Part shown: one piece after another, positions 41,786 through 62,719 of the stretch
Numbering within the stretch: position 1 is the first letter of the stretch
Layout of the letters: the number at the start of each line of letters is the position of its first letter
DNA from: Methanolobus zinderi
GTDB taxonomy: Archaea; Halobacteriota; Methanosarcinia; Methanosarcinales; Methanosarcinaceae
Reading direction: 5' to 3'
Length of the DNA: 64,000 bases
NCBI RefSeq assembly: GCF_013388255.1
Contig: NZ_CP058215.1
Location: 248,001 to 312,000, forward strand
The notes under the pieces: generated by a model
Seen by the model: the letters and a program-made list of their open reading frames with translations, nothing else
Databases searched by the model: none
What the model was told of the DNA's origin: nothing
Translations under genes and position numbers: made by a program

Positions 41786-43260
<1,475 letters not shown>

Positions 43261-43290
43261 AAGCAGATCGGCACAAAGCCGATCACCACT

Positions 43291-43324
43291 TACCGGTCAG
43301 AAATCGATAAACTGCCAGATCCAA
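43291..43324 (+). other. 16S processing stem, 3' half
   Basis: Complementary to 41634-41667; see that entry for pairing. Lies between the 16S 3' end and tRNA-Ala. Confidence 0.85.
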
Positions 43325-43344
43325 TACACAAGCGGGACGCTCAA

Positions 43345-43417
43345 GGGCTTGTAGATCAGTTGGAAGATCGTCGCCTTTGCAAGGCGAAGGCCCTGGGTTC
43401 GAATCCCAGCAAGTCCA
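43345..43417 (+). tRNA. tRNA-Ala(TGC)
   Basis: A 73-nt cloverleaf in the 16S-23S spacer. Acceptor GGGCTTG pairs with CAAGTCC, giving the G3-U70 alanine identity pair. The anticodon loop is TTTGCAA (anticodon UGC) and the T arm has CTGGGTTCGAATCCCAG. Discriminator A; CCA not encoded. Cotranscribed with rRNA, as in most euryarchaea. Confidence 0.97.
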
Positions 43418-43509
43418 TTTAATTATTAGTGCACCAGGCAAGTAATTTTGCCAGGGAAGGATGAAGTGTTCACATCCCCAATGTCGAACACAATGAGATC
43501 ATTATAAGC

Positions 43510-43540
43510 ATGCATATATCAGACGCTCACTGGATAAAGT
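43510..43540 (+). other. 23S processing stem, 5' half (bulge-helix-bulge)
   Basis: ATGCATATATCAGA (43510-43523) pairs with TCTGATATGTGTAT (46495-46508), and TGGATAAAGT (43531-43540) with ACTTTGTCCA (46478-46487), allowing G-U pairs. The central 4-bp helix CGCT/GGCG is flanked by three-base bulges CAC (43528-43530) and AAA (46492-46494), a textbook bulge-helix-bulge. Confidence 0.85.
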
Positions 43541-46477
<2,937 letters not shown>

Positions 46478-46508
46478 ACTTTGTCCAGGCGAAATCTGAT
46501 ATGTGTAT
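46478..46508 (+). other. 23S processing stem, 3' half
   Basis: Complementary to 43510-43540; see that entry. Lies between 23S and tRNA-Cys. Confidence 0.85.
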
Positions 46509-46574
46509 GTGATTATCTTGATCTAAAAGGTAAAGTATTTAAGATACTGGCTACAATGAATTATCGCTCTTAAC

Positions 46575-46646
46575 GCCAAGGTGGCGGAGCGGCTACGCAA
46601 TCGCCTGCAGAGCGATTTCATTCCGGTTCGAATCCGGACCTTGGCT
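46575..46646 (+). tRNA. tRNA-Cys(GCA)
   Basis: 72-nt cloverleaf with acceptor GCCAAGG/CCTTGGC, anticodon loop CTGCAGA (anticodon GCA) and T arm CCGGTTCGAATCCGG, discriminator T (U73, the cysteine identity base). It lies between 23S and 5S, so it is transcribed with the rRNA operon. The window also encodes an aSelBL-like factor whose relative binds Cys-tRNA. Confidence 0.97.
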
Positions 46647-46660
46647 TTACCTTCATCATA

Positions 46661-46800
46661 TGTAAGTGAGTCTGGCGGCCATAGCGGCAGGGCAACTCCT
46701 GTACCCATCCCGAACACAGAAGATAAGCCTGCCAGCGTTTCGTACTGTACTGAAGTACGAGAGTCTTTGGGAACTACGAATCGCTGCTGGCTCACTTACA
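46661..46800 (+). rRNA. 5S ribosomal RNA with flanking stem
   Basis: Recognised by GGCGGCCATAGCGGCAGGGC near 46674 and CCCATCCCGAACACAGAAGA near 46705, both conserved 5S blocks. TGTAAGTGAG (46661-46670) and CTCACTTACA (46791-46800) are fully complementary and contain helix I plus part of the precursor, so the mature ends lie a few bases inside. An extra hairpin CGTACTGTACTGAAGTACG near 46741-46759 makes it longer than a bacterial 5S. Confidence 0.93.
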
Positions 46801-49263: not shown

Positions 49264-49290
49264 TCCCTCCACTGAAGTAGAGGGCATCTA
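49264..49290 (-). ncRNA. Right-end hairpin, probable 3' end of TnpB guide RNA (reRNA/omegaRNA)
   Basis: On the minus strand, CCCTCTAC TTCA GTGGAGGG pairs over eight bases and lies just after the tnpB stop codon. In characterised IS605-type systems the guide RNA overlaps the 3' end of tnpB and ends at the right end, its guide being the adjacent flanking sequence. Here that guide would be read from about 49255 leftwards. Inferred by analogy; expression unknown. Confidence 0.6.
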
Positions 49291-50391
49291 AGCTTTTTGT
49301 GCTACAGACTGTAGCCCCAGTCTGTGTATATTAATGGCAGCATTGTGGTCTCTGCTCAGAACAAGACTGCAGAAAGGACAACTGTGTGTTCTTTCAGAAA
49401 GGTTTTTTCGGACTATCTGACCACAACCAGAACACATTTGCGAAGTGTTGCTTGGTTCGACAAGCTCTACATCCTTACCGGCCCATTCTGCCTTGTAAGT
49501 AGTGATACTTATCAGTTTATTCCATGAAACATCTGCAATGTGCTTTGCAAGGCAATGGTTTTTGATCATTGCCTTGACGTTTAAATCTTCAAAAACTATC
49601 AGGTCATATGCTCTGACAAGTTCCAGACTTACTTTTTGAACAAAATCCTGTCGTTTATTGGCAATCCTTTCATGAATATGTCCGACTATTTTGAGTGCTT
49701 TCTTCCATTCAGGTGAACCTTTGACGGCCTTTGACAATCTTCGTTGTGCTTTTGCCAGGTGCTTTTCTTCGCTTACAAAGAATCTGGGATTTGGGATATC
49801 CTGACCATTTGATAATGTCAGAAAACTTTTAATTCCTACGTCCACTCCCACAGATTGTCCTGTTAGTGGTATTGTTTCTTGATTATCAATATCGACAAGG
49901 AAAGATACAAACCATTTTCCTGTAGAATTTTTTCGAATAGTAAGTCTCTTGATACTTCCGACAATAGGCCTATGCAGTTTTACCTTGATCTCGCCTATCT
50001 TTGACAACCATAGTTTGTTATCCTGCAGTTCAAAACCAGACTGAGTATAAGTGATACTGTCATATCTGTTCTTACCCTTGAACCTGGGATAACCCGGGTT
50101 CTCTCCGTTCTTACATCGTCTGAAGAATGCCTGAAAAGCAAGGTCCACTCGCTGCACTACATCCTGTAAGACCTGAGAGTGTACATTCCTGAGTTCAGGT
50201 TTGATCACTTTCCAGCCAGGGAGCATCTTCTTGGACTCAAAGTACCCGATGTTCTCCTGTTCGAACTCCCATGCATTCTTCCGTAGTGCCAGCGTTTCAT
50301 TATATGCCCATCTGCAAAGCTCAAGTGTGTCAGCAAGAGTTGATTTCTGAGCTTTTGTAGGATAGATACGGTAACGAAACACTTTATTCAA
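49288..50391 (-). CDS. tnpB: TnpB (RNA-guided nuclease of IS605 group)
   Basis: 367 residues from the TTG at 50391 with GGAGATAAT upstream; a TTG four codons earlier reads MEIILNKVF and is the alternative. It has the classic opening VFRYRIYPTKAQ. RuvC-I is at VGVDVGIKSFLTL (Asp), RuvC-II at VFEDLNVKAM (Glu), a zinc ribbon at CSGCG...CPFC, and RuvC-III at SRDHNAAINI (Asp). All three catalytic acids and four zinc cysteines are present, so the protein looks active. TnpB cuts target DNA under guidance of the RNA from the element's right end and helps keep it in place. Confidence 0.9.
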   Translation of the reverse strand: MNKVFRYRIYPTKAQKSTLADTLELCRWAYNETLALRKNAWEFEQENIGYFESKKMLPGWKVIKPELRNVHSQVLQDVVQRVDLAFQAFFRRCKNGENPGYPRFKGKNRYDSITYTQSGFELQDNKLWLSKIGEIKVKLHRPIVGSIKRLTIRKNSTGKWFVSFLVDIDNQETIPLTGQSVGVDVGIKSFLTLSNGQDIPNPRFFVSEEKHLAKAQRRLSKAVKGSPEWKKALKIVGHIHERIANKRQDFVQKVSLELVRAYDLIVFEDLNVKAMIKNHCLAKHIADVSWNKLISITTYKAEWAGKDVELVEPSNTSQMCSGCGQIVRKNLSERTHSCPFCSLVLSRDHNAAINIHRLGLQSVAQKA

Positions 50392-50403
50392 AATTATCTC
50401 CAA

Positions 50404-52099: not shown

Positions 52100-52314
52100 T
52101 TAATTTCCAATTCTTATTTTTTTAATCAGATGCTACAAGTCATATACGTCATAATCGATTAGGTGCAGCCTTGATCTTTCAGTTCTTATTCCGCTTCTAC
52201 TTTCAATGGATGCTTTCCAACAGTTGTGTCGAGGAAAATATACTATTCTAATTATGATTTCAGTGTCATTAAACACTGAATAGCATATATAGCAATAGAC
52301 CAAAGTAGTAGTGT
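52100..52314 (+). promoter_or_regulatory. Promoter of the sulfur operon with operator-like palindrome
   Basis: TTCAGTGT CATTAA ACACTGAA (52259-52280) is a perfect 8-bp inverted repeat. It ends four bases before a TATA box CATATATAG (52284-52292), so it overlaps the place where TFB would bind. The ATG lies at 52315, about 25-30 bp from the TATA box, suggesting a leaderless message or very short leader. A regulator bound to the repeat would block transcription initiation. Confidence 0.65.
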
Positions 52315-53577
52315 ATGAAAGAAATTACTACTGATGAATTATCTGATAACTTGCATAGATATAAGGTAATAGATATCAGGTCCGTTGACGCCTACAACGG
52401 ATGGAAAGAGAGTGGAGAAGCAAACGGGGGACACATTAAGGGTGCAAAATCACTTCCATACAAATGGTCACACTATATTGACTGGATAGAGATCGTCAGA
52501 AACAAGGGGATAATACCGGAAGATTCCCTGCTGATCTATGGTTATAACAGGGATAACATCGAGGAAGTGGCAGAACTATTTGAAAAAGCTGGATATCCTG
52601 ATGTAACTGTCTACAATTCATTTTTCGAATGGGCGGAAGAGGATCTGCCCATGGAGCAGCTTGAAAGGTACAGGCAACTGGTCTCTGCTGACTGGCTTAA
52701 TGATCTTATCAGTGAGAATAAGGCTCCTGAGTATGACAACGATAAGTTCGTGATCTGCCATGTGCACTACAGGAACCCTTCTGATTATGATGAAGGGCAT
52801 ATTCCGGGAGCCATACCCATTGATACTAATTCCCTCGAATCCACGGAAACATGGAACCGTCGCTCTCCTGAAGAATTAAAGGAAGCACTGGAGAATGCAG
52901 GTATATCCCATGACACCACGGTTATTGTCTACGGAAGATTTTCGTATCCTAAGAACGAGGACCCTTTCCCGGGAAGCAGTGCAGGCCATCTGGGTGCGAT
53001 GAGAGCTGCGTTCATCATGCTCTATGCTGGTGTAAATGATGTGCGTATACTCAATGGAGGTCTTCAGTCCTGGCTCGATGCAGGTTATGAGATATCAAAG
53101 GAGCCTGCGAAGAAAAGCAAAGTATCCTTTGGTATACACATTCCTCAAAAACCGGAACTTGCAGTCGATCTGGAGGAGGCCAGGGAGATTCTCGAAGCCT
53201 CTGACAAGAACCTTGTTTGCGTCAGAAGTTGGAGAGAGTACATAGGAGAGGTGAGCGGTTACAATTATATCGAGAAAAAAGGCCGCATCCCCGGAGCGCT
53301 TTTCGGAGACTGCGGTTCGGATGCCTATCACATGGAAAACTACAGGAGCCTGGACCATACCATGCGCGAGTATGGGGAGGTTGCGCAAAATTGGAAAAAG
53401 ATCGGAATCACACCTGATAAGCGCAATGCGTTCTACTGCGGAACCGGCTGGAGAGGTAGTGAAGCCTTCTTTAACGCATGGCTTATGGGCTGGGATAGAT
53501 CCGCAGTATTTGATGGCGGATGGTTTGAGTGGAGCAATAATGATCTTCCATTTGAAACGGGTGAGCCGGAAGAATGA
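52315..53577 (+). CDS. eanB: Triple-rhodanese sulfurtransferase, probable EanB (hercynine sulfurtransferase)
   Basis: 420 residues with three rhodanese domains (about 1-115, 125-262 and 280-415). In the first two the catalytic Cys is absent (LLIYGYNRDN; VIVYGRFSYP); only the third keeps it, Cys375 in AFYCGTGWRGSEAF, preceded by Tyr374. In Chlorobium EanB the active site is Tyr411-Cys412 with a helper Tyr353; here Tyr316 lies exactly the same 59 residues before the Cys (numbers recalled, not checked). EanB replaces a C-H bond of hercynine by C-S using persulfide or polysulfide, giving ergothioneine without oxygen. The gene directly downstream encodes the histidine methyltransferase, supporting this over a generic thiosulfate sulfurtransferase. 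First gene of four joined by ATGA overlaps. Confidence 0.75.
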   Translation: MKEITTDELSDNLHRYKVIDIRSVDAYNGWKESGEANGGHIKGAKSLPYKWSHYIDWIEIVRNKGIIPEDSLLIYGYNRDNIEEVAELFEKAGYPDVTVYNSFFEWAEEDLPMEQLERYRQLVSADWLNDLISENKAPEYDNDKFVICHVHYRNPSDYDEGHIPGAIPIDTNSLESTETWNRRSPEELKEALENAGISHDTTVIVYGRFSYPKNEDPFPGSSAGHLGAMRAAFIMLYAGVNDVRILNGGLQSWLDAGYEISKEPAKKSKVSFGIHIPQKPELAVDLEEAREILEASDKNLVCVRSWREYIGEVSGYNYIEKKGRIPGALFGDCGSDAYHMENYRSLDHTMREYGEVAQNWKKIGITPDKRNAFYCGTGWRGSEAFFNAWLMGWDRSAVFDGGWFEWSNNDLPFETGEPEE

Positions 53578-54536
53578 TTATAGAAGATTTCATGCCGGAG
53601 GTCGGAGAAACTTCGATCAGAGAAAAACTGGTATCCTGTCTGAAATCAAATCCAAAGACCCTTCCCAGTATGTTCTTCTACGACCATAAAGGGTCGGAGT
53701 TGTTTGAGAAGATAACACAACTTGAGGAATATTATCCTCCGAAGATCGAAATCCCTCTGCTCAGATCAACGGCAAGGACATTGAACGGAGAGCTTAATGA
53801 ATGTGATATTGTAGAGCTTGGAAGCGGGGACTGTTCAAAGATCTCGGTGTTTTTGGATGAGGTTCCGGAAGAAACTCGCCGAAATGTCGTTTATTATCCT
53901 GTTGATGTTTCCCGCGAGGCTATAGAGAAATCTGCCGGTATCCTCCAAAAAAGATATCCTGAGATGGATGTCCACGGGATTCATGCTGATTTTCTCGAGC
54001 ATATTGAAAAGATTCCTGGAAAGAGGAAGAGATTTTTCTGTTTTTTCGGAAGCACAATAGGCAATCTGACAGAAGATAAGGCCATGGAGTTTATGAGAAA
54101 CCTGAACAGGATCATGAATAAGAATGACAGGCTTCTCCTTGGAATGGATATGGTGAAAGACGTCGATGTAATCGAGAAAGCCTACAACGACAGTCAGGGA
54201 ATCACCGCAGAGTTCAACAGGAACATACTGAGAGTCACAAACAGTCATCTAGGAACGGATTTCGATCCTGATGACTTCGAGCATGTTGCGTTTTTTAATA
54301 AGGAACTGTCCAGGATCGAGATGCACCTGAGAGCAAAAAGGGATCTGGAAGTTAGAAGTCCCCTGCTGAATGAGAGATTCATCTTCAAGAAAGGTGAGAC
54401 CATCCACACGGAAAACTCTCATAAGTATACTGTGGGCCATATCAGGAAGATGGCAAACGCCGCAGGGCTTTCCCTGGAAAATGTGTATACTGATGATAGG
54501 AAATGGTTCTCTCTTGCGGAGATGGTGAAACGATGA
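53574..54536 (+). CDS. eanA: Histidine N-alpha-methyltransferase, EgtD/EanA type
   Basis: 320 residues. Family signatures are unmistakable: MFFYDHKGSELFEKIT followed by EEYYPP, FFGSTIGNLTED (Asn164, the imidazole contact), GMDMVKD, RIEMHLRAKRD and GETIHTENSHKY (Glu280 and Ser282, the amine-binding pair). This enzyme trimethylates histidine to hercynine with three SAM. EgtD is best known from aerobes with EgtB; here no EgtB is present but a rhodanese of EanB type is, so the anaerobic route applies. The ATG overlaps the preceding stop (ATGA). An ATG six codons later is an alternative start. Confidence 0.9.
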   Translation: MIIEDFMPEVGETSIREKLVSCLKSNPKTLPSMFFYDHKGSELFEKITQLEEYYPPKIEIPLLRSTARTLNGELNECDIVELGSGDCSKISVFLDEVPEETRRNVVYYPVDVSREAIEKSAGILQKRYPEMDVHGIHADFLEHIEKIPGKRKRFFCFFGSTIGNLTEDKAMEFMRNLNRIMNKNDRLLLGMDMVKDVDVIEKAYNDSQGITAEFNRNILRVTNSHLGTDFDPDDFEHVAFFNKELSRIEMHLRAKRDLEVRSPLLNERFIFKKGETIHTENSHKYTVGHIRKMANAAGLSLENVYTDDRKWFSLAEMVKR

Positions 54537-55714
54537 GTGATTTCAGGAAAGATTTCCCGATACTTGAAAAGGAGGTTTACGGGAAACGGCTGGTATATCT
54601 CGACAACGCAGCAACCAGCCAGAAACCGAATTCTGTGATAGATACCATATCCGACTATTACAGCTCAGATAACAGCAATATCCACAGGGGAGTTCATTAC
54701 CTGAGCGAAATTTCAAGTGAAAAATACGAGAAATCGAGGGAAGAGGTAAGCAATTTCATCGGAGCCGGTGAGCCGGGAGAGGTGACATTCACCGCCGGGA
54801 CGACCGATTCGATAAACCAGGTTGCATGCTCGCTTAAATCTATCTTGAAGGGTAACGAGGTATTGGTATCAGGTGTGGAGCATCACTCGAATATCGTGCC
54901 GTGGCAGCTTGCAGGAGCAACACTCAGGGAGATCCCAATGGATGAAGGTTGCAATCTGTTGCCGGATTCCATAGAGATTACGGATAAAACCAAACTGATA
55001 GCCATATCCCATGCATCGAATGTTCTTGGCTCTGTCAATCCGATCAAAGAGGTAGTCGAGATCGCAAAGGAACACGATATCCCTGTCCTTGTGGATGCGG
55101 CCCAGTCCATCCAGCATATGCCGATAGATGTGCAGGATATCGGCTGTGACTTCCTTGCAGCTTCGGGTCACAAGATGTATGCAGCTACCGGGGTAGGCGT
55201 GCTTTACACGAGCGAGCGCTTCGGTGATATCCTGCCTGCAAGAGGCGGTGGGGGCATGGTCGACAGGGTGACACTTGAAGAGACAACCTACCTGAAACCT
55301 CCATTAAGGTACGAGGCAGGCACGCCGCACATTGCAGGGGCAATAAGTATCGCTGCAGCAATCGATTACATGCAGGACATCGGCATGGATAAGATCAGAG
55401 AGCACGAGCATGAGGTGTATTCCTACGCAAGGAATAAGCTGCTGGAAACCGACGGTGTGACGGTTTACGGGAACACCAAAGAGATGTGCGGTTCAATCTC
55501 GTTCAACCTTGACGGAATCCATCACTACGACACGGGACTGATACTGGACAAAATGGGAATTGCCGTGAGGACCGGACACCACTGCGCCCAGCCGTTGATG
55601 AGAACCCTCGGAACTGAAGGCACGGTGAGAGCCAGTTTTGCGTTGTATAACACGAAAGAGGATGCCGACAGGCTGCTAGAAGGCATAGAAAAAGTAAGGA
55701 TGATGTACGCATGA
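54533..55714 (+). CDS. SufS-family cysteine desulfurase in ergothioneine-like operon
   Basis: 393 residues from the ATG at 54533, which overlaps the methyltransferase stop (ATGA); a longer reading from 54503 is unlikely. Fold-type I PLP enzyme of SufS group: DNAATSQKP near 24, EHHSN near 116, PLP Lys214 in ASGHKMYAATG, and catalytic Cys351 in RTGHHCAQPLM. It would take sulfur from cysteine as persulfide. No sufB, sufC or sufD genes accompany it, so Fe-S assembly is not the obvious role; supplying persulfide to the EanB-like protein through the SufE-like gene is more likely. Also resembles EgtE-like proteins in fold, but that C-S lyase is not needed in the anaerobic pathway. Confidence 0.88.
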   Translation: MSDFRKDFPILEKEVYGKRLVYLDNAATSQKPNSVIDTISDYYSSDNSNIHRGVHYLSEISSEKYEKSREEVSNFIGAGEPGEVTFTAGTTDSINQVACSLKSILKGNEVLVSGVEHHSNIVPWQLAGATLREIPMDEGCNLLPDSIEITDKTKLIAISHASNVLGSVNPIKEVVEIAKEHDIPVLVDAAQSIQHMPIDVQDIGCDFLAASGHKMYAATGVGVLYTSERFGDILPARGGGGMVDRVTLEETTYLKPPLRYEAGTPHIAGAISIAAAIDYMQDIGMDKIREHEHEVYSYARNKLLETDGVTVYGNTKEMCGSISFNLDGIHHYDTGLILDKMGIAVRTGHHCAQPLMRTLGTEGTVRASFALYNTKEDADRLLEGIEKVRMMYA

Positions 55715-56118
55715 GAGATGCTGTTCAGGATGAGATCATAGGACAGTTCGACGGCCTCGAATGGCTTGACAAATACGGCCTGCTGATCTCATATGCAAAA
55801 GAGCTTGAGCCCATGGATAAAGAGTTCAGGACCGAGGAGAACTCCATAAGCGGATGCCAGTCCAAGGTCTGGATCAGGACTTACAGGGAGAACGGCAGGC
55901 TTATAATCGATCTCGATAGCGAGGCCATGATAACAAAAGGCATCATCTCACTTTTACTCAAGGTTGTGAACAACCGCCCTCCCCAGGAGATCCTGGATCT
56001 TGATTTGTATTTCATAGACGAGATAGGCCTGAAGTCCAATCTTTCGCCTGCAAGGGCTGATGGGCTGGCTTCGATCATCAGGAGGATCAGGGAGGTTGCT
56101 GAGCGGGAAATGAACTAG
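55711..56118 (+). CDS. SufE-like sulfur acceptor protein
   Basis: 135 residues, typical SufE length. The persulfide-accepting Cys49 is in NSISGCQSKVW, and the segment MDKEFRTEENSISGC marks the family. SufE takes the persulfide from SufS and passes it on, here presumably to the rhodanese. ATGA overlap with the desulfurase gene shows translational coupling. Last gene of the four-gene unit; no clear terminator follows within 100 bp. Confidence 0.88.
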   Translation: MRDAVQDEIIGQFDGLEWLDKYGLLISYAKELEPMDKEFRTEENSISGCQSKVWIRTYRENGRLIIDLDSEAMITKGIISLLLKVVNNRPPQEILDLDLYFIDEIGLKSNLSPARADGLASIIRRIREVAEREMN

Positions 56119-59103: not shown

Positions 59104-59297
59104 AGAATTATATTCCTTTTTTTAATTTAGCTTTAATCAAATTAAAGTAATTTTTTATTAGAAGTTCTGTTTTTTTTTTTTAGTTGTATATATCCCCACA
59201 CTTACTTGCGAAGGGTAAGATTTGAGCCATTGTCAATTCGTCCACTTACTTATTATAAAAAATAACCAATCCTCATACATGCAGGAGAGATGAGTGC

Positions 59298-59363
59298 ATG
59301 ACAAGTACACAAACTCTCGCCAAAATTTCCCGCCTCTCTCCAAAAGTAAATATACGATACTGA
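59298..59363 (+). CDS. Possible 21-codon leader peptide upstream of the prenyltransferase gene
   Basis: ATG with AGGAGAG about ten bases upstream, encoding MTSTQTLAKISRLSPKVNIR plus one residue, before a stop at 59361. The same ribosome binding site could instead serve a GTG at 59294 that extends the prenyltransferase by 34 residues. It lies downstream of a TATA-like TATTATAAAAAA near 59250. Weak evidence; listed because a strong ribosome binding site must serve something. Confidence 0.3.
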   Translation: MTSTQTLAKISRLSPKVNIRY

Positions 59364-59395
59364 AAATTAGGAGGCTAGAACTTACTGGTGATAAC

Positions 59396-60361
59396 GTGGT
59401 TTCCACTTCTGAATCAAAAACTAGGAATCCTTATGTCGAGCTTCTCAGGCCGGAGATTGCCGACATGGATCTTGCCCTTCCTGCTGCCAGTGCTTTGCTG
59501 GCGGCCTATCTTGCCACTGGAGGCTTCCCTCCGTTGATACCTTTCATAATCGCGGTGATCGGCGGTTACGCAGCGATCACGAGTTCCTATGTGTACAACG
59601 ACTGCTGCGATATGGATATCGATAAGATCAACCTTCCCAACCGCCCGCTGGTATCCAATCGGCTCACGCGGGATCAGGCGCTCAAGTACGCGCTCTTCCT
59701 GTTCGTGGTTGCCGGTGCGGCTGCGCTTATACTCAACCCTGAGTCCTTTGTGGTGCTCCTGATAGCTGTCGGAACGATCAGCATCTATTCGGCCATAGCC
59801 AAAAGAGCCACATTCCTGAGCTTTGTGCCCGTGGGTATTGCATACGGTCTTGTTCCCATAGGTATCTGGCTTGCATTCGACTCTGCCGGAGTGCTCAACA
59901 TACCCGGACTTTTCGGCGTAGTTCCTCACTATGGTGACATACTTCCTCTGCCTGCGGTCTTCCTGGGTCTGATGATGTGTTTCACCGACTGGGGATTCAC
60001 ACTCTCGGGCGTTGCCAGGGACGTTGAAGGGGACCGTGCACGCGGTGCTCCAACATTCCCGGTAACATTCGGAATTGAGGCAACCTCGAAGTTCGTAACC
60101 CTGATGTGGGTTGTAGGAGTCATCGCCTCCATTGCAATCGGACTAACAGCAGAGCTGGGTCCCATATATTTTGCAGGTGCACTGCTCGCAGGTGGCTGGA
60201 TGCTCACACAATCATTTGATTTCATAAAGAACCCGCTACCTGAGCGCGGAGGAAAACTCTTCCTCCAGGGTTCAAGATACAGAGGTATCATGTTCGGTTC
60301 ACTCATACTTGACGTAATACTCCTGGTACTTGTCCCGGCATATTCCGGCATACTCTGGTAA
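59396..60361 (+). CDS. UbiA-family prenyltransferase
   Basis: 321 residues from the GTG at 59396 with GGTGAT upstream; a GTG at 59294 gives 355. Eight or nine TM helices. The first Asp-rich motif YNDCCDMDIDKINLPNRPL and the second, DWGFTLSGVARDVEGDRARG, bind the Mg-pyrophosphate of the prenyl donor. UbiA enzymes add isoprenoid chains to aromatic or glycerol acceptors; in archaea the best known is DGGGP synthase of membrane lipids. The next gene encodes a divergent geranylgeranyl reductase and the third a radical SAM protein, so a tail-modified lipid or a prenylated cofactor such as methanophenazine is possible. Which of these cannot be told. Confidence 0.88.
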   Translation: MVSTSESKTRNPYVELLRPEIADMDLALPAASALLAAYLATGGFPPLIPFIIAVIGGYAAITSSYVYNDCCDMDIDKINLPNRPLVSNRLTRDQALKYALFLFVVAGAAALILNPESFVVLLIAVGTISIYSAIAKRATFLSFVPVGIAYGLVPIGIWLAFDSAGVLNIPGLFGVVPHYGDILPLPAVFLGLMMCFTDWGFTLSGVARDVEGDRARGAPTFPVTFGIEATSKFVTLMWVVGVIASIAIGLTAELGPIYFAGALLAGGWMLTQSFDFIKNPLPERGGKLFLQGSRYRGIMFGSLILDVILLVLVPAYSGILW

Positions 60362-60414
60362 ACGATAGCGATAATGGTTAAATTAAAAGAGGAAACCAGT
60401 CAAAGAGACTCAAC

Positions 60415-61572
60415 ATGGACGCGGATATCATTGTAATAGGGGCTTCCCCTGCGGGAGTCATGGCAGCAAGGAATGCTTCGAGCAAAGGCTGCAAGGTCAT
60501 GCTCCTCGACAGGAAGGAAGCTGCAGGTGTACCAACCCACCCTGCGAACACCTTCTTCAAGGGAATGTTCGACCGTACAGGCGAGGAGGTCGACCAGAGC
60601 TATGTCATCAAGAACCTCAAGGGCGCCTACATAATAGCGCCCGGTGGCAGGAACGTTCTCTTCGAAGGAGAAGCCTATTTCCTCGACCGCAGAAAATTCG
60701 ATGAATTCTACATCAAGCAGGCAGAAGATGCAGGCGCAGACGTTCGCTTCGGAATCGAGGTCCTCAACGTTCTCAGGTCCGAAGGCGGCTTTCTGCTAAG
60801 CACCTCCAAGGGTAAGATGAGATGCAAGCTGGTGATAGTCTCTGACGGCATCAACTCAAGGATTGGCGGCCTTCTCGGCATGAAGCCCATAAAGTACCCG
60901 GACGATATCGCCTGGTCCCTGGAAGCCGAGATCGAGGCAGACAGCATCGGTGAGCCTGATTATTTCGAATACTATGTGGGCAATCACGCACCCGGCTGGA
61001 AATCCACCTATTCCCCGTGTGGTGGCAACAGGGCTACCCTCGGGATGTACGTCCGCAGGCACGGCATGGATGTTTCCGATTTCTTTGATGACTGGCTTGA
61101 AAGGTTCAAGAGACTCAAGGGACTTGATGAAGTGAAGATCATCAGCAAGTCCACAGGTGGCGACCCCATAGCTGCAATTCCCGGTGATATCGTTGACGAT
61201 GGTGTCATGATCGTGGGTGGTTCTGCTGCCCAGTCAGGTATCGGATACGGCATGCATGCAGGACAGATGTGCGGTGATGTTGCAGCCGATGCAATCGCAA
61301 AAGGCGATACCTCAAAGGGATTCCTCTCAGAATACAGGAAACGCTGGAATGATGAATACAGGACCGAGTACTATCTCGGAAGATTTGCCCTCGAGACTCT
61401 AAGAAAGATGTCCGATAATGAGATCAATGAGATGATGAAGGTCTTTGAAGGCGAGGACCTGAAGGTGCTTGGCGGAAGTCCTTTTAGCCAGGCAGTGCAG
61501 ATATCGAAGATGATACTGAAAAATAATCCCTCTTCAATACTCTCTTACAGGGCTATCTTCAGGAACAAGTGA
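60415..61572 (+). CDS. Divergent geranylgeranyl reductase-family flavoprotein
   Basis: 385 residues. FAD Rossmann motif VIGASPAGVMAARNASSKG opens the protein, VIVSDGINSRIGGLLG sits near 140, and the second FAD motif GVMIVGGSAAQSGIGYGMHAG near 270 is typical of the GGR group. The usual Cys-containing loop after the first strand (PxRCAEG in classical GGR) is replaced by AAGVPTHPANTFFKG without Cys, so it probably reduces a different prenyl substrate or uses another donor. Ends with a helical tail. Downstream of the prenyltransferase by 53 bp and two bases before... the radical SAM gene, so clearly one operon. Confidence 0.85.
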   Translation: MDADIIVIGASPAGVMAARNASSKGCKVMLLDRKEAAGVPTHPANTFFKGMFDRTGEEVDQSYVIKNLKGAYIIAPGGRNVLFEGEAYFLDRRKFDEFYIKQAEDAGADVRFGIEVLNVLRSEGGFLLSTSKGKMRCKLVIVSDGINSRIGGLLGMKPIKYPDDIAWSLEAEIEADSIGEPDYFEYYVGNHAPGWKSTYSPCGGNRATLGMYVRRHGMDVSDFFDDWLERFKRLKGLDEVKIISKSTGGDPIAAIPGDIVDDGVMIVGGSAAQSGIGYGMHAGQMCGDVAADAIAKGDTSKGFLSEYRKRWNDEYRTEYYLGRFALETLRKMSDNEINEMMKVFEGEDLKVLGGSPFSQAVQISKMILKNNPSSILSYRAIFRNK

Positions 61573-61573
61573 G

Positions 61574-62719
61574 ATGAAGAACAAATATTACTTTTACAAA
61601 AATCCGTTTTTCAAAGTATATGCCCAGATCGAGAACGGCCTGGTAAAAATGAAGACATCAGGCATTGCATCTTCTGTCATGGGCTCATTTGTCTCCGATA
61701 TGATGGAAATATTCGAAGGCACAAAGCCTTCAAAAGTCGAGAATGACCAACTGATCTACTCTACATGGATGCCTCCCATACCAAGCAAGGCCTTTGACAG
61801 GCTCGTATCAAGCCAGATGAGTGCAATGCGGGGCAAGTACATCCCGGAGCAGATCACGATATCAATCACCGAGGAGTGTCCCAACAGGTGCATTCACTGC
61901 GCACTCCCGGACACAAAGAACAAGGCAAAGCTCAGTCCCGATATTGTAAAGAGCATCATAGACCAGACACAGGATATGGGCACGACCCTAATTATCTTCG
62001 ATGGCGGTGAACCCTTGCTCTATGATGGTCTTGAGAATCTTATTAGTTATGTGGACCAATCAAAGGCGATTCCCGGCCTTTTCACATCAGGTGTGGGTCT
62101 GACGCCCGAGCGTGCATCAAGCCTGAAAGCGTCGGGTCTTTCCATGCTCAGCATCAGCCTTGACAGTGCGAACGAAGCGGGTCATGATTTCATGCGCGGC
62201 AGGCCGGGCGTGTTCAATGAGGCCACAGCCGCAATAAAGAACGGTCTTGATGCCGGACTGCTGGTTGGCATTTACGTTGTCCTCTCTCCGCGCAATATCA
62301 ATGAGCTGGATGATTTCTATGAACTTGCAAAAGACCTGGGCGTACATGAGCTGTCCTTTTACGAGATAGTTCCCACCGGCAGGTGGCAGGGTCACGAAAA
62401 GGAAGTCCTGTTTGCTGAAGACCTGAAAAAGTTCGATGATTTCGTGGAACGTACATCCTGTGCCGAGGGACCGCGTGTGTTCCCGATACCCCAGATCATC
62501 AGGAAAATGGGATGCTTTGCAGGCCGCAAATGGCTCCATGTGACTCCCGAAGGAGATGTCCTTCCCTGTGCATGCATGCCAAAACCCTATGGCAACATCC
62601 ATGGTGAAACTCTGGAATCCATCTGGAAGAAGATATACAAGGATCCTGTTTTCAACTCAGGTCCGTGTCTTATGCGTGACAGCGAGTTCAGAAAGGTCCA
62701 TCTCGGACTTGAAAAGTGA
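61574..62719 (+). CDS. Radical SAM/SPASM domain protein
   Basis: 381 residues. A 95-residue N-terminal extension is followed by a radical SAM core with the cluster motif ECPNRCIHC (Cys-x3-Cys-x2-Cys), IIFDGGEPLLYDGL (the GGEP motif) and LSISLDSANEAGHDFMRG. The C-terminal SPASM-like region has CFAGRKWLHVTPEGDVLPC followed by a Cys-x-Cys and later Cys for auxiliary Fe-S. SPASM proteins usually modify peptides or cofactors. Its start is one base after the reductase gene stop, so it belongs to the same pathway. Target unknown. Confidence 0.9.
   Translation: MKNKYYFYKNPFFKVYAQIENGLVKMKTSGIASSVMGSFVSDMMEIFEGTKPSKVENDQLIYSTWMPPIPSKAFDRLVSSQMSAMRGKYIPEQITISITEECPNRCIHCALPDTKNKAKLSPDIVKSIIDQTQDMGTTLIIFDGGEPLLYDGLENLISYVDQSKAIPGLFTSGVGLTPERASSLKASGLSMLSISLDSANEAGHDFMRGRPGVFNEATAAIKNGLDAGLLVGIYVVLSPRNINELDDFYELAKDLGVHELSFYEIVPTGRWQGHEKEVLFAEDLKKFDDFVERTSCAEGPRVFPIPQIIRKMGCFAGRKWLHVTPEGDVLPCACMPKPYGNIHGETLESIWKKIYKDPVFNSGPCLMRDSEFRKVHLGLEK

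Follow-up and report, generated by a model that had tools for sequence, protein, structure and literature searches.

What would a methanogen do with a rhodanese, a methyltransferase, a cysteine desulfurase and a SufE-like protein encoded in one compact run of genes, and from where would the sulfur come? The locus in question lies in a window of 64,000 nucleotides, the whole stretch of DNA that was analysed (Table 1). Ergothioneine, its suggested product, is familiar chiefly as an antioxidant made by aerobic organisms, and there is no accepted explanation of what it does for strict anaerobes. Likewise debated is where the synthase EanB obtains its sulfur in the cell: polysulfide serves in vitro, whereas the active site appears closed to IscS. 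An operon that constantly carries its own desulfurase and SufE offers a testable answer for one branch of EanB enzymes. Sequence and structure prediction document the order of the genes, the families to which they belong, their conserved residues and a strict co-inheritance of SufE and EanB; on these grounds we are fairly confident that the operon serves to make ergothioneine anaerobically and provides the sulfur itself.

Table 1 Features of the predicted ergothioneine operon, in window coordinates
Feature	Position	Strand	Assignment and basis
CATATATAG	52284..52292	+	Archaeal TATA-box-like, centre ~27 nt upstream of the eanB start codon (ATG); candidate promoter, picked out by eye
eanB	52315..53577	+	Three-domain rhodanese, predicted ergothioneine synthase; residue roles from PMC10903977 and PMC9103826
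eanA/egtD	53574..54536	+	Predicted SAM-dependent L-histidine N-alpha-trimethyltransferase; TIGR03438, PF10017
sufS	54533..55714	+	SufS-family PLP cysteine desulfurase; TIGR01979, alignment to E. coli SufS
sufE	55711..56118	+	Sulfur-acceptor protein, Cys49; PF02657; proposed sulfur carrier to EanB

All four reading frames lie on the plus strand where the initial annotation had placed them, and successive genes share the three 4-nt overlaps that it reported, each ATGA (53574-53577, 54533-54536 and 55711-55714). The second overlap requires the SufS start adopted here, which gives 393 aa; the longest open reading frame begins at 54503. Gene order and strand, and mostly also the 4-nt overlaps, are kept in all Methanosarcinaceae loci that were followed to their end, a recurrence that puts the four-gene arrangement far beyond chance. 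SufE lies downstream of EanB at a distance of 2164-2190 nt in all 26 genomes compared that carry both on one contig (26/26). Apparent exceptions are contig ends, with one locus (L030) stopping after EanA and another (L038) within SufS; an operon split across two overlapping contigs (L025/G018) is not a true exception either. A scan for sigma-70-type promoters and terminators, a type of scan not apt for archaea, gave results near chance level. The host is a methanogen with a Methanolobus-like genome: McrA (mcrA) is present in the same 2.70-Mb contig as the operon, and the nearest named EanB is that of Methanolobus halotolerans (88%).

The rhodanese is an EanB orthologue, predicted from its sequence to sulfurize hercynine at C2 of the imidazole ring. 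It shares 60% identity with the EanB of Chlorobium limicola, and it scores 589 bits with EanB, compared with 285 for YnjE and 72 for the best thiosulfate sulfurtransferase. Its predicted fold matches C. limicola EanB structures with a TM of 0.95, YnjE with 0.87 and thiosulfate sulfurtransferases with ≤0.6, and all 14 best matches in a structure search were EanB. The protein thus groups with characterised EanB, as the initial annotation had supposed, and not with thiosulfate sulfurtransferases. The Tyr374-Cys375 site singled out earlier aligns with Y411-C412 of C. limicola EanB; Cys375 alone of the four cysteines (148, 302, 333 and 375) occupies the rhodanese loop, and all four match cysteines in the C. 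limicola enzyme. The catalytic residues Cys375, Tyr316, Thr377 and Arg380, which correspond to C. limicola Cys412, Tyr353, Thr414 and Arg417, are invariant in our alignment. A YnjE-like enzyme that acts generally in thiosulfate or molybdopterin sulfur transfer, next to the methyltransferase by coincidence, would share the three-domain architecture, equivalents of the active-site Tyr353 and Glu345, and much of the fold, as the TM for YnjE attests. Yet the EanB bit score is twice as high, 39 alignment columns are invariant among EanBs but different in YnjE, and pairing with EgtD is conserved, even as a fusion. We regard this reading as exceedingly improbable, and the scores, the EanB-specific columns and the fold search rule out a YnjE-like or thiosulfate sulfurtransferase identity.

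The adjoining gene encodes an EgtD/EanA-type histidine N-alpha-trimethyltransferase, the predicted producer of hercynine. It scores 356.6 bits with TIGR03438, above the curated EgtD equivalog cut-off of 290.9, and 363.8 bits with PF10017. The substrate motifs noted at the outset, GSTIGN and IHTENS, are present and hold the equivalents of EgtD N166, E282 and S284. Indeed, all ten checked positions (Y39, F47, Y56, G161, N166, Y206, T213, M252, E282 and S284), which we take to be the histidine-binding residues of M. smegmatis EgtD, are kept, so that histidine rather than another substrate is indicated. A natural EanB-EanA fusion of 749 aa in a Bacteroidales genome, together with an EgtD-family gene in 23 of the 25 EanB genomes where this gene is mostly non-adjacent to EanB (both misses are MAGs), places the two proteins in one pathway; the same count speaks against another function for EanBs that lack a nearby EanA. 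Few residues govern the substrate range of EgtD, so the predicted product could instead be some other thiol or selenol made from histidine, such as under-methylated 2-thiohistidine or selenoneine. We consider this highly improbable, as the M252 and E282 equivalents are among the residues kept, the catalytic residues and fold of EanB are common to hercynine complexes, and attempted selenoneine synthesis with EanB failed (PMC9103826).

The last two genes would supply the sulfur for ergothioneine. SufS reaches 503.7 bits with TIGR01979 (cut-off 475.1), and with the start adopted here its Lys214 and Cys351, numbered correctly from the beginning, align with K226 and C364 of E. coli SufS. SufE reaches 133.5 bits with PF02657 (cut-off 27), and its Cys49 aligns, as proposed, with E. 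coli SufE C51; it does not reach the NCBIfam equivalog cut-offs for SufE or CsdE and is therefore a family-level SufE, not assigned as the E. coli Fe-S orthologue. Elsewhere in the genome, IscU occurs with its own desulfurases, and further SufS homologues adjoin FdhD and YcaO. In a survey of the phylum that covered 393 genomes, intact SufE was found in exactly the EanB carriers (24/24) and in none of the sampled genomes that lack EanB; a 31-codon SufE remnant alone is left in one further genome. The same exclusive association holds among 60 relatives (19/19 carriers). Because intact SufE is missing from every sampled EanB-lacking genome, it does not appear to be a general Fe-S factor in this phylum, and a housekeeping role is disfavoured. 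This strict co-occurrence backs the built-in sulfur relay of the initial annotation, in which SufE would pass sulfur to EanB.

The four-gene order recurs across seven phylum-level groups, with occurrences in Thermoplasmata, Aminicenantes, Omnitrophota, Planctomycetes, Elusimicrobia and Fibrobacterota. In the EanB tree, the SufE-linked enzymes all fall to the same side of a single branch and are thereby separated from the EanBs of the Chlorobium/Bacteroidota type, which have no SufE nearby. This branch has a UFBoot value of 91, appears in 92% of bootstrap trees and requires one label change compared with 21.6 in shuffles; its SH-aLRT value is 36 in the careful tree, and that of the matching branch in the quick tree is 86. 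EanAs of SufE-linked loci also group (19/20). Trees of SufE do not resolve the ean-linked SufEs as one family. We infer that the SufE-linked branch draws cysteine sulfur via SufS and SufE rather than free polysulfide. Alternatively, ergothioneine could be made while SufS and SufE merely raise general polysulfide or sulfide or serve Fe-S assembly, with EanB using free polysulfide as proposed for Chlorobium. Polysulfide is the best donor in vitro, the IscS effect has been re-interpreted as polysulfide formation (PMC9103826), and the catalytic residues of EanB are identical in both branches. This alternative seems unlikely, though well short of negligible, given the confinement of intact SufE to EanB carriers and the separate desulfurase-IscU pairs in the genome. 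On balance, we lean towards two donor lineages of EanB: the Chlorobium/Bacteroidota enzymes, which have no linked relay and would use polysulfide, and those of methanogens and several other phyla, which would be loaded by their own SufS-SufE, with persulfide passed directly from SufE into the active site. These methanogens would then be ergothioneine-making archaea.

In the proposed pathway, whose product, sulfur route and SufE-to-EanB transfer we infer, EanA would methylate histidine three times with SAM to give hercynine. Meanwhile, SufS could remove sulfur from cysteine using Lys214-bound PLP, forming a persulfide on Cys351 that is handed to Cys49 of SufE. SufE would next load EanB, directly or via a short polysulfide, to yield a persulfide on Cys375. 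Finally, Tyr316 of EanB could protonate the imidazole ring and sulfur would be placed onto C2, giving ergothioneine without oxygen. C. limicola EanB yields ergothioneine with polysulfide and also with a cysteine desulfurase, and its Cys412 is reached through a 13-angstrom tunnel that IscS is considered unable to enter because of its narrowness (PMC9103826). With so narrow a tunnel, SufE may have difficulty passing sulfur straight to Cys375, in which case the actual intermediate may be polysulfide. According to a 2020 review, detection of ergothioneine in archaea had yet to be reported (PMC7278568). Methanolobus, Methanohalophilus, Methanosalsum and Methanococcoides are culturable genera in which to look for it, and sister species in which the operon is naturally missing would serve as controls.

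Several known systems share parts of this design. The catalytic residues of E. coli SufS-SufE and CsdA-CsdE align with those of the methanogen pair. These E. coli systems are known for Fe-S assembly, whereas the methanogen sufSE has no adjoining suf scaffold gene and its SufE tracks EanB. In Mycobacterium tuberculosis, the gene for a SufE-like protein adjoins that of the rhodanese SseA, which the protein binds and activates, but the pair has neither an EgtD partner nor a desulfurase and was assayed with thiosulfate and cyanide (PMC12375888). Caldithrix abyssi MES is likewise an anaerobic ergothioneine synthase that takes cysteine sulfur from a dedicated desulfurase module; however, this metallopterin enzyme is unrelated and has a NifS/IscS-like domain fused to it, where the methanogen has a rhodanese and, as proteins of their own, SufS and SufE (Beliaeva & Seebeck 2022, PMC9516567). 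A further relative is the C. limicola pathway (Burn 2017, Leisinger 2019 and Cheng 2020, as cited in PMC7278568 and PMC9103826), in which EanB has the same catalytic residues and an EgtD-family methyltransferase adjoins. There, a Chlorobium-like locus (L162; EanB 92% to C. limicola) is an eanB-eanA pair with neither SufS nor SufE in the 14 kb read, in contrast to the methanogen operon. The presence of predicted ergothioneine genes in methanogens is less new than first implied: eanA and eanB in methanogens have been known since 2020, when the review described the same gene pair in the same methanogen family, in Methanococcoides vulcani, and proposed ergothioneine (Rawat & Maupin-Furlow 2020, PMC7278568). 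Its available text does not mention SufS-SufE, and earlier papers may mention desulfurase genes beside eanB; the relay is the less expected part. The methanogen operon is a variant of the known ean pathway, found also in several bacterial phyla and other archaea.

The four genes joined by three ATGA overlaps proposed in the initial annotation were recovered as an ean operon in the window (see table), whose genome is a single contig of 2.70 Mb with McrA present. In phmmer searches of the PDB, the rhodanese scores 589 bits against EanB of Chlorobium limicola, 285 bits against Escherichia coli YnjE and 72 bits against the best thiosulfate sulfurtransferase (TST). Likewise, the best 14 structural matches to its AlphaFold model (pLDDT 89.4, pTM 0.90) are all EanB entries (60% identity, TM 0.95), followed by YnjE (37% identity, TM 0.87) and then by TSTs. 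By both measures the protein groups with EanB and not with TSTs, as originally suggested. The closest named EanB is that of Methanolobus halotolerans (88% identity).

Features of the ean operon in window coordinates
Feature	Position	Strand	Description
ean operon	52315-56118	+	four genes; consecutive genes overlap as ATGA, three times
eanB product	first gene of operon	+	rhodanese, three domains, 420 aa
eanA product	second gene of operon	+	methyltransferase, 320 aa
sufS product	start 54533	+	SufS, 393 aa
sufE product	fourth gene of operon	+	SufE, 135 aa

The four cysteines of the window EanB (C148, C302, C333 and C375) correspond to C184, C339, C370 and C412 of the C. limicola enzyme. C. limicola Tyr353, Thr414 and Arg417, to which functional roles have been assigned (PMC10903977, PMC9103826), are Y316, T377 and R380 in the window protein and invariant in the EanB alignment. 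Tyr353 and Glu345 alone are not diagnostic, because YnjE has both; 39 other alignment columns are conserved in EanBs and different in YnjE. A Gemmatimonadetes EanB (L037:5152-7254) carries ~280 additional N-terminal residues with no Pfam match.

The window EanA exceeds the EgtD equivalog cut-off, also matches EgtD structures and retains Y39, F47, Y56, G161, N166, Y206, T213, M252, E282 and S284 (Mycobacterium smegmatis numbering), ten residues of the M. smegmatis EgtD structures. Its assignment as an EgtD-type histidine methyltransferase is thus supported. Independent evidence that EanB and EanA act in one pathway comes from a Bacteroidales MAG, where a natural fusion joins them in a single 749-aa protein (L077:5992-8241 and L198). 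Elsewhere, a group of divergent EanAs (~31% identity; loci L042, L058, L087, L090 and L096), paired with EanB in Bacteroidota/Chlorobiota, have Ser at the M252 position and GSN for GST, and may differ in methylation specificity. In G028, a genome from the host's family, codon 127 of EanA (L177:5599-6561) is an in-frame TAG, the only interruption in an otherwise intact gene and operon; this codon may be read through, the family using pyrrolysine, or may be a nonsense mutation.

SufS K214 and C351 align with E. coli K226 and C364, and SufE C49 with E. coli C51, in agreement with the residues named for these two proteins in the initial annotation. Other desulfurases in this genome include two NifS/IscS-type genes, each followed by a NifU/IscU-type scaffold gene, and two SufS homologues, one adjoining a YcaO gene (L173, G000:C1:2222000-2232000) and one adjoining FdhD and a ThiF-family gene (L172, G000:C1:655000-665000). 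Every desulfurase apparently serves a client of its own encoded nearby. Unlike the desulfurases, SufE has only the copy in the ean operon.

SufE and EanB occur in an identical set of 19 of 60 relatives. Across the phylum, the 24 of 393 genomes with SufE above cut-off are the same 24 that carry EanB (counting an EanB fragment at a contig edge in G017), although these genomes are relatives and the counts do not represent independent events. In the 26 genomes compared that have the two genes on one contig, they lie 2164-2190 nt apart. Within the window's genus, both are present in 16 of 27 genomes and absent from 11 (one only 70% complete), always together. In one further genome (L206:293-385, G134:C7), SufE is reduced to its last 31 codons after an apparent tRNA 3' end, likely a relic of operon loss. 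EanB was found in four of the 136 genera sampled in the phylum, most likely, from the named loci, Methanolobus, Methanococcoides, Methanosalsum and Methanohalophilus. All four genera are methylotrophs, for the most part from marine or saline habitats or halophilic. The simplest reading would be that the operon was acquired once and then lost repeatedly.

Upstream of eanB, after a 215-nt gap, lies tgtA, encoding tRNA-guanine transglycosylase; TgtA adjoins the operon in some but not all Methanolobus loci, which argues for a four-gene unit. The TATA-like sequence CATATATAG, ~27 nt 5' of the eanB ATG, may be a promoter element. Directly upstream of tgtA is an apparent TnpB-type transposon protein ORF, identified by eye (49288-50403, - strand), and a full archaeal rRNA operon (SSU-tRNA-LSU-tRNA-5S) occupies 41786-46792. 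Three adjacent genes at 59294-62719 encode a UbiA prenyltransferase, a geranylgeranyl-reductase-like flavoprotein and a radical SAM/SPASM protein, none meeting an NCBIfam equivalog cut-off.

More broadly, the order eanB-eanA-sufS-sufE recurs in Aminicenantes, Omnitrophota, Thermoplasmatales, Phycisphaerae, Elusimicrobia and Fibrobacter, with eanB-sufS-sufE in Chitinivibrionales and eanB-sufE in Caldithrix, Gemmatimonadetes and Ignavibacteriales. No SufE lies near eanB in a Chlorobium-like locus (EanB 92% identity) or in nearly all Bacteroidota loci, which have eanB-eanA or eanB by itself. In a careful EanB tree of 69 rows, SufE-linked proteins fill one side of a branch (UFBoot 91, 92% of bootstrap trees, but SH-aLRT only 36; SH-aLRT 86 for the matching branch in a quick tree), and linkage requires a single label change, compared with 21.6 on average when labels are shuffled. 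The EanA tree clusters 19 of 20 SufE-linked EanAs; the SufE tree does not resolve relations among SufEs. Genomes searched from the SufE-linked EanB branch have one SufE each, the ean-linked copy, except Caldithrix, with an additional weak second match. Many are MAGs, but binning error is an unlikely cause of the linkage because the pattern recurs across several phyla. In the alignment, no catalytic residue differs between the two EanB branches; five non-catalytic columns (137, 208, 222, 226 and 371) separate them and could belong to a donor interface.

Identities, residues, gene order and co-inheritance are established here at the level of sequence and structural model. Homologues of EanA and EanB had already been described from anaerobic methanogens by Rawat & Maupin-Furlow (PMC7278568), who named Methanococcoides vulcani and gave ergothioneine as undetected in archaea at that time. 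The literature searched yielded no paper linking ergothioneine to SufE as a sulfur relay, and the four papers that mention both terms are, judging by their titles, about something else; Burn 2017 and Leisinger 2019 lie outside that search and may hold an earlier mention.

We propose that EanA would convert histidine to hercynine, and that cysteine sulfur would pass through SufS Cys351 to SufE Cys49. This sulfur would then load EanB Cys375, delivered by SufE either directly or via a short polysulfide, and EanB would insert it at C2 of the imidazole ring. The C. limicola enzyme is active with polysulfide; it was first run with IscS, whose effect was re-read as polysulfide formation because a 13-angstrom tunnel ends at Cys412 (PMC9103826). 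Precedents for the proposed hand-over from SufE to EanB include known fusions and pairs of desulfurase with rhodanese (PMC8931425) and the SseA pair of Mycobacterium tuberculosis, in which a SufE-like protein adjoins the rhodanese and has been demonstrated to bind and activate it (PMC12375888).
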